Assembly (NCBI GenBank): GCA_031276675.1
Contig: JAISMO010000146.1
Location: 1-32,048 of the forward strand
From: Tannerella sp.
GTDB lineage: Bacteria; Bacteroidota; Bacteroidia; Bacteroidales; Tannerellaceae
Length of the DNA stretch: 32,048 nt
Direction of reading: 5' to 3'
The first letter of the stretch is position 1, and every line of letters begins with the position of its first letter. Shown in pieces: positions 7,377 through 29,875 of this stretch. A model generated the notes under the pieces. It was not told where the DNA came from, made no database searches, and saw nothing but the letters and a program-made list of their open reading frames with translations. The translations under genes and the position numbers were made by a program.

Positions 7377-7496
7377 AAAAACAGCCGGGCGCTTGCCGAA
7401 AGTCTTGCCGGAGGCGCGGGCGGATTTCACGCCGACCTGCGGCCGTCCGAAATACAACATTTCACGGAACCTTTGGATTTCGTCTGTTTTGCGAAT

Positions 7497-7789
7497 CTGT
7501 CCATGGACAGAAGTATGAATCCGTCCGTTTTTTAGGATCTGTCCATGGACAGAAGTATGAATTCGTTCGCTTTTTTGGATCTGTCCATGGACAGAAGCAT
7601 GAATCGTTCGCATTTTGGGATCTGTCCATGGACAGAAGTATGAATTTGTCCGTTTTTACGGTTCTGTCCATGGACAGAAGCATGAATTCGTCCGTTTTTA
7701 CGGTTCTGTCCATGGACAGAAGCATGAATCCGTCCGTTTTTACGGATCTGTCTATGGACAGAAGCATGAATCCGTCCGTTTTTGCGGTT
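7497..7789. repeat. Tandem palindrome-centred array 1: 7 units, 42 bp period
   Basis: Units start at 7497, 7539, 7581 (41 nt), 7622, 7664, 7706, 7748. Each begins with the perfect palindrome CTGTCCATGGACAG (unit 7: CTGTCTATGGACAG), then AAGyATGAATnCGTyCG... and a T-rich stretch. Confidence 0.95.
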
Positions 7790-7928
7790 CTTTTGTCTTT
7801 TCCCGGCTCGAACGCACGTTATATGACATTTCGCGCAGTAGGGTTTTGTCATGTTTTTTGTTCACCGGTCCATTTCCGCTCCGGTCGCATCCACACCGGC
7901 ATATCTCCCGCATCTCGGATATTTTGCA

Positions 7929-17661: not shown

Positions 17662-17816
17662 CTTGCTGAAACGAAAAAAACACGTTTCGATGTATAAATT
17701 TCCCGTCACGTCCGGCAACCTCACGGAAAAAACGGCGGAGAGCGAGTCGCCCGTCCATCGCCGAAAATAGCCCCCGACACGCTTCCGCAAAGTATGCCGA
17801 ACCGTTGAGGCGCTTT

Positions 17817-17977
17817 GTAATGCTACAAAGCGCCTCTTTGTAACGTTACAAAGCGTCTCTTTGTAACGCTACAAAGCGTCTCTTTGTAACGCTACAAAGC
17901 ATCTCTTTGTAACGCTGCTACTCGACGCAACGTAACGTTACTACTCGACACGACGTAACGTTACTGCTCGACAGGTA
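17817..17977. repeat. Tandem palindrome-centred array 2: 7 cores, 23 bp period, two linker types
   Basis: 10 bp cores GTAACGyTAC-like at 17817, 17840, 17863, 17886, 17909, 17932, 17955. Linkers 1-4 AAAGCGTCTCTTT-type; linkers 5-7 TACTCGACACGAC-type. Core 2 with flanks is the 18 bp perfect palindrome CTTTGTAACGTTACAAAG. Confidence 0.95.
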
Positions 17978-18051
17978 AAAACGCCTGCCCGTATCTTCCC
18001 GATGCAGAGGAGGAATGCTCTCGGAGGCTTGGCTGTCCGGAATAAATCCGT

Positions 18052-22529: not shown

Positions 22530-23543
22530 ATGAATACAGATATCAAATATACCCCCCAGGACTATAAAAGCGATCAGTATGTACGCTGGTGTCCGGGTTG
22601 CGGCGACTACGCCACCCTCAACAGCCTGCACAGGGCCATGGCCGAATTGAATATCCCGCCCCACCAAATGGCGGTGATTTCCGGTATCGGGTGTTCGTCG
22701 CGTTTGCCCTATTACATGAATACGTACGGATTTCATACGATTCACGGACGCGGAGCAGCCATTGCCACGGGAGTGAAAACCGCCCGTCCCGACCTGAGCG
22801 TCTGGCTGATTACGGGTGACGGCGACTGTCTGGCCATTGGAGGCAATCACTTCATTCATGCCGTGCGACGCAATGTCGACCTGAACATTATCCTGATGAA
22901 CAATAAAATATACGGTCTGACCAAAGGACAGTATTCCCCAACTTCCGACCGCGGATTCGTTTCGAAAAGTTCGCCCTTCGGCACGGTGGAAGACCCGTTT
23001 ATTCCAGCGGAACTGACGCTGGGCGCGCGGGGCCGGTTTTTTGCCCGGACCATTGACGTGGATTTGGCCGGCCAGACCGAAGTCTTTATCGCTGCGGCGC
23101 GTCACAAAGGGACATCCGTCGTGGAAGTGCTGGACAACTGTGTGATCTTCAATGACGGGATACACAAAATCATTGCCGACAAGACGTTTCGTGCAGAGAA
23201 AACCATCGTGCTCCGTCACGGCGAAAAGATGCTGTTCGGACAGAACAGAGAGCAAGGGCTTGTGCTGGACGGACTGAAACTGAAGGCCGTAACCGTTGGC
23301 GAAGACGGCTATACACTGGATGATATACTGGTGCATAACGCGCATGAGCAGGACATGACGCTGCACATGATGCTGGCCATGATGAGAGACCGCCTGCCGG
23401 TAGCCATGGGGGTGATCCGCGATGTGGAAGCGCCCGCCTATGACGAATCCGTGGCAAAGCAAATCAGCGAAGTCCAGGCCAATACACCTGTCCGCAAACT
23501 GCATGATCTGCTGATGAACGGCGAAATCTGGGAAATTAAATGA
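22530..23543 (+). CDS. korB: 2-oxoacid (2-oxoglutarate):ferredoxin oxidoreductase, beta subunit
   Basis: RWCPGCGDYATLNSLHRAMAEL, SGIGCSSRLPYYMNTYGFHTIHGRGAAIATGVK, TGDGDCLAIGGNHFIHAVRRN, GLTKGQYSPTS. Confidence 0.95.
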   Translation: MNTDIKYTPQDYKSDQYVRWCPGCGDYATLNSLHRAMAELNIPPHQMAVISGIGCSSRLPYYMNTYGFHTIHGRGAAIATGVKTARPDLSVWLITGDGDCLAIGGNHFIHAVRRNVDLNIILMNNKIYGLTKGQYSPTSDRGFVSKSSPFGTVEDPFIPAELTLGARGRFFARTIDVDLAGQTEVFIAAARHKGTSVVEVLDNCVIFNDGIHKIIADKTFRAEKTIVLRHGEKMLFGQNREQGLVLDGLKLKAVTVGEDGYTLDDILVHNAHEQDMTLHMMLAMMRDRLPVAMGVIRDVEAPAYDESVAKQISEVQANTPVRKLHDLLMNGEIWEIK

Positions 23544-23660
23544 GGTTCGGCCCGAAGGATGGATTGTAAAAGAAAGAAAGGGGCGCACGCTGTACGCCGG
23601 AGGCGTACCGGAGCCGACAAAGTAAGGCTTGTCGGTGAAAAAGCCTTTGGAAAACAAAGA

Positions 23661-23912
23661 CCGTTTTCCGGGAAACAGAAACCGTTTACGGGGAAATAAA
23701 AACCGTATCCCGGGAAACAGGAAATGTCATCTGGGATACGGAAAACATTTCCCGGAAAATGATTTTCATTTCCCGGGATACGGAAAAATTTTGCACGAAA
23801 ACTGAAATCATTTCCCGGAAAACAGAAACCGTATCCCGGGAAATGAAAAATGCCACCCGGGACACGGCGGACATTTCCCGGAAAATGGCGCCTGTTTTTG
23901 CGCTTTTTCGGG
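23661..23912. repeat. Tandem palindrome-centred array 3: about 11 clear units plus degenerate flanks, 21 bp period
   Basis: Units every 21 bp from 23661, for example CCGTATCCCGGGAAACAGGAA (23703), TCATTTCCCGGGATACGGAAA (23766), CCGTATCCCGGGAAATGAAAA (23829); centre usually TCCCGGGA/CCCGGAA. The 23892..23912 unit and 23640..23660 are degenerate. Confidence 0.93.
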
Positions 23913-24043
23913 CATGCTCCCCCCAGTCTTTTCAAGTGTTCCGTATGAACAATATAGGTATATCGGACAGGATATCTCCATTGGCTGAAAGCCGTAAATC
24001 TTCATAACCAGCGATCGGCGACCGACGGCACCCCGCCATGGCT

Positions 24044-24092
24044 GCCTGAAAGGCAGGACAAAGCGCCATGCTTCGTGTCCTGCCTTTCAGGC
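24044..24092. other. Perfect 17 bp-arm hairpin in the korB/GH92 gap
   Basis: GCCTGAAAGGCAGGACA (24044..24060) and TGTCCTGCCTTTCAGGC (24076..24092), 15 nt loop. Confidence 0.85.
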
Positions 24093-24310: not shown

Positions 24311-26569
24311 ATGACAGTTTTAAATGGAGGGAGAAAAAAGAGTGGGTGGTGGTGTGCCTGTGCGCTGGTTTTGGCCGCGTGTACACAGGAATCCGAAAAG
24401 GCCGAAACGCATACGGTGCAATCGCCGGCGCAGTATGTCAATCCTTTTGTGGGCGTGGCCTACGTCGGCCATACGCATCCGGCGGCGCAGCTGCCTTTCG
24501 GCATGGTGCAGGCAGGACCGGATACGGGTACGGACAAGTGGGAACACTGTTCCGGTTACTTCAACGAGGACAAGTCGATTATCGGGTTTTCACATACGCA
24601 CTTGAGTGGCACCGGCTGTCCCGATATGGGCGACATCATGCTGATGCCGGTGGTGGGTGACGTGCCGCTGGACCGGGGGGATGAAAACGACACGTCAACA
24701 GGCTACCGTTCGGCTTTTTCGCACGATTCGGAAGAAGCGCATCCGGGCTATTACCGGGTGAGGCTTGACGACTACGGCATCACGGCCGAAATGGCAACTA
24801 CCCTGCGCGTGGGTTTTCACAGGTATACCTATCCGCGGTCGGAGCAGTCCGGCATGATCCTTGACCTGGGACACGGCATTGGCGACACGACGCTGGCTTC
24901 CGAAGCGCGTTTTTTAGACGACAGCACGCTGGTCGGCAAGCGGCGCTCGGCCGGATTCGTAACAGACCATACGCTGTATTTCTGCGCCCGATTTTCCAGA
25001 CCGGTCACTCAGTTTGTGTCCTTTGTGGATGGAAAAACAGGTGCGGAACGTGAAATCAAGGGCACAACCGTCAAATACCGGCTGAAATTCGCCACGGAAA
25101 AGGACGAAGTTGTGCAGGTGAAAGTGGCGCTCTCGACCGTGAGCGAGGAGGGGGCGCTTAAAAACCTGCAGGCCGAAGCGCCGGGATGGGATTTTGAGCA
25201 GGTCAGGGCCGACGCGACCAACGCCTGGGACAAGTTGCTGAAGACGATCGAAGTGACGCCTGTGAACGACGAGCAGCGGATTTCGTTTTATACCTCGCTG
25301 TATCATGCGCTCCTGATGCCGAACATCATTACGGATGTGGACGGCGTGTACCGCCTGGCGGACGGACGGCTGAAAGCGGATAACCGGAAAGACAAGTATA
25401 TGAATTTCTCGCTCTGGGACACTTACCGGGCGGAACATCCGTTGCTTGCGCTTCTTTTCCCGGAGATAGACGCGCGGTGCGTGGAATCCATGCTGCAACT
25501 CTATCTGGACCGCGGCGTCCTGTGTACCAACGACTACGGACAGAATGAAACCTGGTGCATGATCGGCAACCATGCCGTGCCGGTGATTGTGGACGCCTAC
25601 CTGAAAGGGATTGTAGAAGAGGATCGGGAACTGGCTGCCGAAGCCATCCGCGGTTCACTGACCCGGTCGCACGAAAAGTCGGACTGGGAGATGTATAACC
25701 GGTATGGATACTATCCTTTTGACCTGCTGGACGTCGAATCTGTTTCGCGCACGCTGGAGCACTGCTATGACGACTATTGCGCCGCGAAATTTTTCGACTG
25801 GCTGGGCAAACCGGAAGAAGAGGCTTTTTTCCGCAAGCGTTCCGACAACTACAAAAACCTGTTTGATCACGAAACCAAGCTGATGCGTGCGAAGGATTCC
25901 AAAGGACAGTGGCGCACGCCGTTCGACAAATTCCTGCTTTCACATGCGGCCACCAGCGGCGGCGACTATACGGAAGGCAATGCGTGGCAATATACGTGGC
26001 ACGTGCAGCACGACATCCCGACGCTGGTGGAACTGCTCGGCGGCAGGGAGGCGTTTGGCGTCAAACTCGATTCCCTGTTTTTCCTGGATACGCGCTCGCT
26101 GGGTGGCGGCTTTCACGGCGACGTCACCGGCATGATCGGCCAGTATGCCCACGGCAATGAACCGAGCCATCACGTAGCCTATCTGTATAACTATTCCGGC
26201 ACGCCGCACAAGACGCAGGAACTGATTCGCAAGGTGTTCGACGAGTTCTATTTTCCGACGCGCGACGGACTGAGCGGCAACGACGACTGCGGACAGATGT
26301 CGGCATGGTATATCTTTTCGGCGCTGGGCTTCTATCCGGTTGACCCGGTGTCGGGCGACTACATCATCGGTGCGCCGCAGGTACACGCCATGACGCTGCA
26401 TCTGCCGAACGGAAAACGGTTTGAGATGAAAGCAAACGGCCTGTCGAAAGATAATAAATATGTAAAGGCCATCCGCCTGAACGGACAGCCGCTGACAGGC
26501 TTTGTCATCACTTACGGCCAGGTGAAGGAGGGCGGACTGCTGGAATTTGATATGGACAGCCAGCCATGA
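24311..26569 (+). CDS. GH92 family alpha-mannosidase-like glycosidase, lipoprotein
   Basis: MTVLNGGRKKSGWWCACALVLAAC lipobox; YVNPFVGVAYVGHTHPAAQLPFGMVQAGPDTGTDKWEHCSGY, GFSHTHLSGTGCPDMGD, FSLWDTYRAEHPLLALL, GNDDCGQMSAWYIFSALGFYPVDPVSGDYIIGAP. The listed 24068 start is an upstream extension. Confidence 0.95.
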   Translation: MTVLNGGRKKSGWWCACALVLAACTQESEKAETHTVQSPAQYVNPFVGVAYVGHTHPAAQLPFGMVQAGPDTGTDKWEHCSGYFNEDKSIIGFSHTHLSGTGCPDMGDIMLMPVVGDVPLDRGDENDTSTGYRSAFSHDSEEAHPGYYRVRLDDYGITAEMATTLRVGFHRYTYPRSEQSGMILDLGHGIGDTTLASEARFLDDSTLVGKRRSAGFVTDHTLYFCARFSRPVTQFVSFVDGKTGAEREIKGTTVKYRLKFATEKDEVVQVKVALSTVSEEGALKNLQAEAPGWDFEQVRADATNAWDKLLKTIEVTPVNDEQRISFYTSLYHALLMPNIITDVDGVYRLADGRLKADNRKDKYMNFSLWDTYRAEHPLLALLFPEIDARCVESMLQLYLDRGVLCTNDYGQNETWCMIGNHAVPVIVDAYLKGIVEEDRELAAEAIRGSLTRSHEKSDWEMYNRYGYYPFDLLDVESVSRTLEHCYDDYCAAKFFDWLGKPEEEAFFRKRSDNYKNLFDHETKLMRAKDSKGQWRTPFDKFLLSHAATSGGDYTEGNAWQYTWHVQHDIPTLVELLGGREAFGVKLDSLFFLDTRSLGGGFHGDVTGMIGQYAHGNEPSHHVAYLYNYSGTPHKTQELIRKVFDEFYFPTRDGLSGNDDCGQMSAWYIFSALGFYPVDPVSGDYIIGAPQVHAMTLHLPNGKRFEMKANGLSKDNKYVKAIRLNGQPLTGFVITYGQVKEGGLLEFDMDSQP

Positions 26570-29783: not shown

Positions 29784-29875
29784 TTCCACATACCGGAAGT
29801 TACCGATTCCATGTCATGGAATCGTACTGTTCCACATCATGGAACAGTACAGTTCCATGATGCAGAAGATCGCTC
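29784..29875. repeat. Tandem palindrome-centred array 4: about 4 units, 23 bp period
   Basis: Units TTCCACATACCGGAAGTTACCGA, TTCCATGTCATGGAATCGTACTG, TTCCACATCATGGAACAGTACAG, TTCCATGATGCAGAAGATCGCTC at 29784, 29807, 29830, 29853. Confidence 0.88.

Follow-up and report, generated by a model that had tools for sequence, protein, structure and literature searches.

The window, by which we mean the whole 32,048-nt stretch of DNA analysed here, is one contig from the 2.91-Mb draft genome of a Tannerella sp., and the parts of the array and its cassette are given on the forward strand (+). Between two co-directional genes, one for the beta subunit of a 2-oxoacid:ferredoxin oxidoreductase (22530-23543) and one for a GH92 glycosidase that starts near 24312, it carries an intergenic array of 11 palindromic 21-bp units (23661-23891) with the consensus CCGTTTCCCGGGAAACGG followed by AAA. 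A preliminary description had counted 12 units; the stretch 23892-23912, however, is a unique tail shared by all copies of a larger cassette to which the array belongs. As delimited by sequence matches within the same genome, this cassette is about 385 bp long (23569-23953) and consists of a left flank, the array and a right flank. The left flank contains a hairpin, GTACGCC-GGA-GGCGTAC (23592-23608), and a putative terminator-like stem, CCGACA..TGTCGG (23614-23635). The right flank, CCTGTTTTTGCGCTTTTTCGGGCAT..CCGTATGAACAAT (23892-23953), is conserved in the alignment of the copies. An Rfam scan over the window gave no match, and no forward open reading frame of at least 90 aa with an ATG, GTG or TTG start covers the array. 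Two further repeats deserve mention. The hairpin pattern GTACGCC-NNN-GGCGTAC is part of a repeat module that a pattern search located at about 20 places in the genome, and the inverted repeat GCCTGAAAGGCAGGACA..TGTCCTGCCTTTCAGGC (24044-24092) recurs widely in G009, G015 and other members of the genus.

The cassette turned out to be dispersed. Including the window copy, five array-bearing copies are present in the genome, the other four matching over about 350-380 bp at 78-83% identity (C27:12922-13302, C155:7212-7592, C107:6102-6454 and C188:12737-13089). There are also remnants, C77 retaining one unit and C163 the right end only. Full arrays of the palindromic word seen in the window array are confined to five places, with a further, diverged array at C12. 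At C188, the right end of the cassette lies just before a TAA and an uncharacterised gene of about 320 aa, here called gene B, and the right flank corresponds to the tail codons of the heptad-repeat reading frame at that locus. The site orthologous to the window's, downstream of the oxidoreductase gene, has no array in the nine relatives inspected, so the window copy was most likely gained in this lineage. A scan of the GTDB r220 genomes, a collection that possibly lacks the present genome, with a right-flank pattern returned no match.

The unit consensus is a perfect palindrome. As a consequence, every unit resembles every other in direct and inverted orientation alike: the mean identity between units of the window array is 11.31 of 18 positions for direct and 11.27 for inverted comparisons. 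The variable positions are themselves mirror-symmetric across the unit. Positions 3/16, 5/14 and 7/12 carry complementary alleles, and the entropy of the left arm correlates with that of the mirrored right arm (r = 0.80, p = 0.01, n = 9 positions). Complementarity between the two arms of a given unit is nevertheless not maintained, positions 7 and 12 being anti-associated (odds ratio 0.11, p = 0.003) and positions 3/16 and 5/14 showing no association within units. This within-unit test rules out selection for perfect hairpins. Since the arms are not kept complementary, neither frequent correction of one arm by the other nor hairpin selection shapes the array.

The array had previously been interpreted as a product of inverted copying and arm swapping between units. 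The individual sequence matches behind that proposal are genuine. Scripted comparison confirmed that unit 6 (23766-23783, TCATTTCCCGGGATACGG), when reverse-complemented, is identical to unit 9 (23829-23846), and that the match even extends to 21 nt when the TTT preceding unit 6 (23763-23783) and the AAA following unit 9 (23829-23849) are included. Units 5 and 11 are identical at 17 of 18 positions, and the arm types that had been listed are present. We modeled chance by drawing unit columns independently from a pool made up of either all five paralogous arrays or the window array alone. Among 11 units, one or more exact reverse-complement pairs (18/18) appeared in 1.7% of the simulations with the five-array pool and 0.48% with the window pool, and a best inverted match of at least 16/18 in 29-65% of runs. 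The exact pair is thus unusual by chance, but it is one post-hoc pick and no proof of exchange between units.

Comparison of the paralogous arrays does not support unit 6 as an inverted copy of unit 9, as other cassette copies share these sequences by position: C27 has an identical unit 9, and C155 has an identical right arm in unit 6. More generally, units at the same position agree best across paralogous arrays, which is largely the pattern that had been named as evidence against inverted copying. Once one extra unit of C155 is removed, same-position units of the window and C155 share 15.4 of 18 positions, as against 11.5 for other positions and 11.4 for inverted comparisons. In the remaining copies the contrast with the window is weaker (12.9-13.6 for the same position versus about 12.1). 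Units are therefore inherited by position. The earlier interpretation of the array is only partly supported: one small flip between units 5 and 6 fits template switching at a fold-back, and related arrays of other species do change orientation, but the descent of unit 6 from unit 9 by inversion is not supported.

That flip (23763-23770) lies in and after the spacer of units 5 and 6, and alignment with the four paralogous copies marks it as derived. The window reads TTTTCATT where C155 has AAATCACC, or, over the whole junction, TGATTTTCATTTCCC versus TGAAAATCACCTCCC. It comprises a change of the spacer from AAAA to TTTT and of CC to TT, five substitutions within 8 bp, each of which fits the reverse complement of the adjacent GGGAAATGAAAA. 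The AAAA spacer is retained in C155, C27, C107 and C188, and the flipped spacer is the only inverted one of about ten in the window array. Clustered substitutions matching an adjacent reverse complement, together with the ancestral state in related copies, are what a fold-back template switch would be expected to leave, and a single such event fits the spacer flip. The left hairpin shows a comparable behavior, in that its 3-nt loop occurs in both orientations, GGA and TCC, among the copies in the genome. In yeast, fold-back template switching causes arm homogenisation and spacer inversion with clustered substitutions, as in the REG2 case (PMC8604942). Both the patch at 23763-23770 and the GGA/TCC loop resemble that case. 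The yeast cases, however, concern single inverted repeats in ordinary genes, whereas here we deal with a tandem array of palindromes whose window copy no longer codes.

The coding state of the array can be judged from its reading frames. In the window, the units are 21 bp long, the palindrome centre falls at position 1 modulo 3, and the corresponding frame has no stop over 75 codons (0 stops in frame 0). A TGA in the same heptad frame (23636-23638) is located just 5' of the array, next to an A run that is one A shorter in the window than in the other copies of the alignment (GTGAAAAAGCC versus GTGAAAAAAGCC). Downstream of this TGA, a residual open heptad frame of 122 codons (KSLWKTKTVFRETETVYGEIKTVSRET..., 23639-24007) runs to a TAA at 24005, and no gene B lies beside the array. 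Nor is change biased towards synonymous sites. Differences between the window and C155 are spread over the three codon positions as 14/13/12, and 5 codons differ synonymously as against 25 nonsynonymously. The TGA at the 5' edge and the absent codon-position bias rule out the window array as a functional coding gene, and the window copy is best regarded as a relic, most likely without function. The third codon position is not in excess in any comparison of the copies of this genome, including C188 with its adjacent gene B. The lack of codon bias at C188 is a real weakness of a coding interpretation in this lineage.

The picture is different in related species. Arrays of 21-bp units like those of the window are present in many species of the genus, and several lie directly upstream of gene B. 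This gene family is found in 16 of 41 genomes of the genus, with 1-8 matches each; Pfam gave no match for it, and the rest of the order yielded nothing convincing, with a single marginal hit at E = 6e-4. As an observation in its own right, the family appears to be genus-restricted and multi-copy (L303-L332; for example G023:C356 and, in the present genome, C188, C158 and C131), and most full-length copies are preceded by a 21-bp array.

We identified 21-bp-periodic arrays in 14 upstream regions of gene B. The frame whose TAA lies exactly 14 nt ahead of gene B is stop-free through array and tail in 10 of these 14, compared with 2 of 28 other frames (Fisher p = 3.5e-5, a value overstated by the non-independence of homologous arrays). 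Counter-examples are an array beside gene B in G001, with two in-frame stops, and L329, with eight. Variability peaks at the third codon position in L303 (0.50/0.65/0.88), L309 (0.65/0.75/1.06), L310 and L320. Related gene B loci use different palindromic words, with cores such as CCCGGG, CGCGCG, CACGTG, CTCGAG and CGTACG, and the unit is always 21 bp. Translated, the arrays give heptad repeats, for example ISREIKT or DKISTHV. On these grounds, the arrays upstream of gene B in the relatives probably encode heptad repeats. The frame test rules out a purely non-coding palindrome array for these relatives, a description retained for many other arrays of the genus, with periods that are not multiples of 3.

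The heptad frame and the palindrome are also mostly in register with one another. In most gene B arrays the palindrome centre follows the first codon base, and in most the mirror-phase reverse frame is stop-free, so that an inversion about a palindrome centre stays in frame. Orientation does switch in related arrays of sister species. In L080, L097, L099 and L102 whole runs of units are affected, with one change between A-type and T-type spacers at a palindrome centre in each, and L049 has one flipped unit. We found no clear conserved start codon for the heptad gene. Pfam and NCBIfam searches with the heptad proteins produced weak generic coiled-coil matches only, below the cut-offs. A PHROGs search gave one weak endolysin-family match and others of unknown function, unconvincing for repetitive sequence, and a literature search found no description of such arrays.

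The 21-bp period extends beyond the gene B loci. A survey of 0.55 Mb of the present genome and samples of other genomes revealed 81 tandem arrays near multiples of 21 bp per Mb in the former, 232 per Mb in G042 and 13 per Mb in other Bacteroidales loci. Periods deviated by no more than 2 bp from a multiple of 21 in 36 of 44 arrays of the present genome and 74 of 93 of G042, with 27% expected under uniformity, and almost half of the phased arrays have a period that is not a multiple of 3. Palindromes with a stem of at least 6 are present in 33% of the present genome's arrays versus 3% of shuffled units. No excess of phased arrays was seen in G041, of the same genus, and in G026, of another family, there are 54 arrays per Mb and phasing is not significant. 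Given this distribution and the many phased arrays of the genus that depart from multiples of 3, the period of two helical turns may have a cause at the level of DNA in the class as a whole, and such a force may also help to shape the arrays. Separately, periods near 21, 42, 63 and 84 bp occur with different palindromic words, in the window at 7487-7791, 17813-17983 and 29807-29859.

Several known systems offer partial parallels. REPs, according to PMC3733652, are high-copy elements of 20-40 bp with shared sequence tags, and like REPs and BIMEs the arrays studied here are palindromic, dispersed and, in the window, intergenic. Unlike the single dispersed word of that class, which is not tandem at a fixed short period, they form head-to-tail 21-bp arrays, use different words and are in frame in relatives; the compensatory change that would preserve hairpins is absent at positions 3/16 and 5/14 and negative at 7/12. 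A CRISPR array would have near-identical repeats and unique spacers of similar length, whereas here the units are contiguous and heterogeneous, with spacers of about 3 nt. Mitochondrial genes of Nematomorpha, according to PMC6649704, contain coding palindromes, with inverted repeats of up to 284 bp in conserved proteins. The likeness is that inverted repeats lie within translated sequence and both arms are coding; the difference is that here short tandem palindromes make up the whole repeat region and the word changes between related loci.

A further parallel is offered by heptad-repeat coiled-coil proteins that vary by repeat copy number. The predicted products share with them seven-residue units, hydrophobic residues at 3/4 spacing and a variable number of units, and differ from them in matching no Pfam or NCBIfam family at cut-off and in having a palindromic DNA unit in a fixed codon phase.

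Could the palindromes be protein-binding sites? A putative dimeric regulator or nucleoid protein would then sit on each of them, the period of two helical turns would place all sites on one face of the DNA, and the arms would vary independently because half-sites are read separately. Dyad symmetry with mirrored variable positions, the excess of periods near 21, 42, 63 and 84 bp, many of them not multiples of 3, and the fixed position of arrays upstream of gene B all agree with this. We nevertheless regard it as rather unlikely, for the palindromic word is wholly different between related gene B loci and could not be read by one regulator, the frame is open up to the stop at -14, and the window copy is an insertion that is not conserved.

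The model of the preliminary description, in which units frequently invert and swap arms through template switching at hairpins or recombination at the centres of palindromes, would account for the exact 21-nt inverted pair, the derived spacer flip, the inverted hairpin loop and the orientation switches of the relatives. The positional clustering of units across copies, the single inverted spacer and the lack of arm homogenisation within units make it improbable as the main process, all the more so as a palindromic consensus yields inverted matches without any inversion. Even less probable is a series of RNA or DNA hairpins, REP/BIME-like, acting as a putative terminator, mRNA stabiliser or supercoiling buffer. 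An intergenic location between co-directional genes, self-complementary units and the terminator-like stem just upstream would suit such a role. It is disfavored by the missing compensatory changes within units, with the reverse trend at 7/12, by the lack of an Rfam match, and by orthologous intergenic regions that manage without an array.

Taken together, the evidence favors, with reasonable though far from complete confidence, a reading in which the window array represents one of several dispersed copies, now decayed, of the repeat region belonging to a fast-evolving, heptad-coding two-gene locus of Tannerella from termite guts, an origin we infer from isolate codes. In the intact locus, the first gene would consist of an in-frame array of some 9-13 palindromic 21-bp units. 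Each unit would be translated into one heptad whose hydrophobic residues follow the 3/4 spacing of coiled coils. The array would be followed by a short tail, a stop and, 14 nt on, gene B. Units would be duplicated in tandem, lost, altered by point mutations and now and then inverted at a fold-back, inversion being tolerated, perhaps under selection, as the fixed codon phase of the palindrome centre would leave an inverted segment in frame and stop-free. In the present genome, the array piece of about 385 bp would have been copied to several sites without gene B; both the route and the direction of this copying are ones we infer. The window copy would then have decayed through the 5' frameshift and TGA, loss of units and one local template switch.

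A bolder version deserves a tentative place beside this reading of a decayed copy, as a possibility that we hold to be clearly the less likely of the two. The locus might be a coiled-coil gene that generates diversity by inverting itself and forms a pair with gene B. Its palindrome centres would be locked to the codon phase, so that inversions between any units would remain in frame and exchange spacer residues, for example MKT for MVF, and the window array might be a scattered spare copy.

The window array is of value mainly as a witness, a released copy that displays the decay of units. If the coding reading is true, a protein repeat and a DNA palindrome would evolve under one 21-bp register, and related genes would hold period, symmetry and frame while nearly the whole sequence is replaced. 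Proteins would thereby vary quickly by an uncommon route, in two paired genes that lack a Pfam family, and the case would warn against labeling such arrays non-coding by default. Since a palindromic unit lets segments invert while the reading frame remains intact, such arrays may offer a so far unrecognised means of varying a protein.
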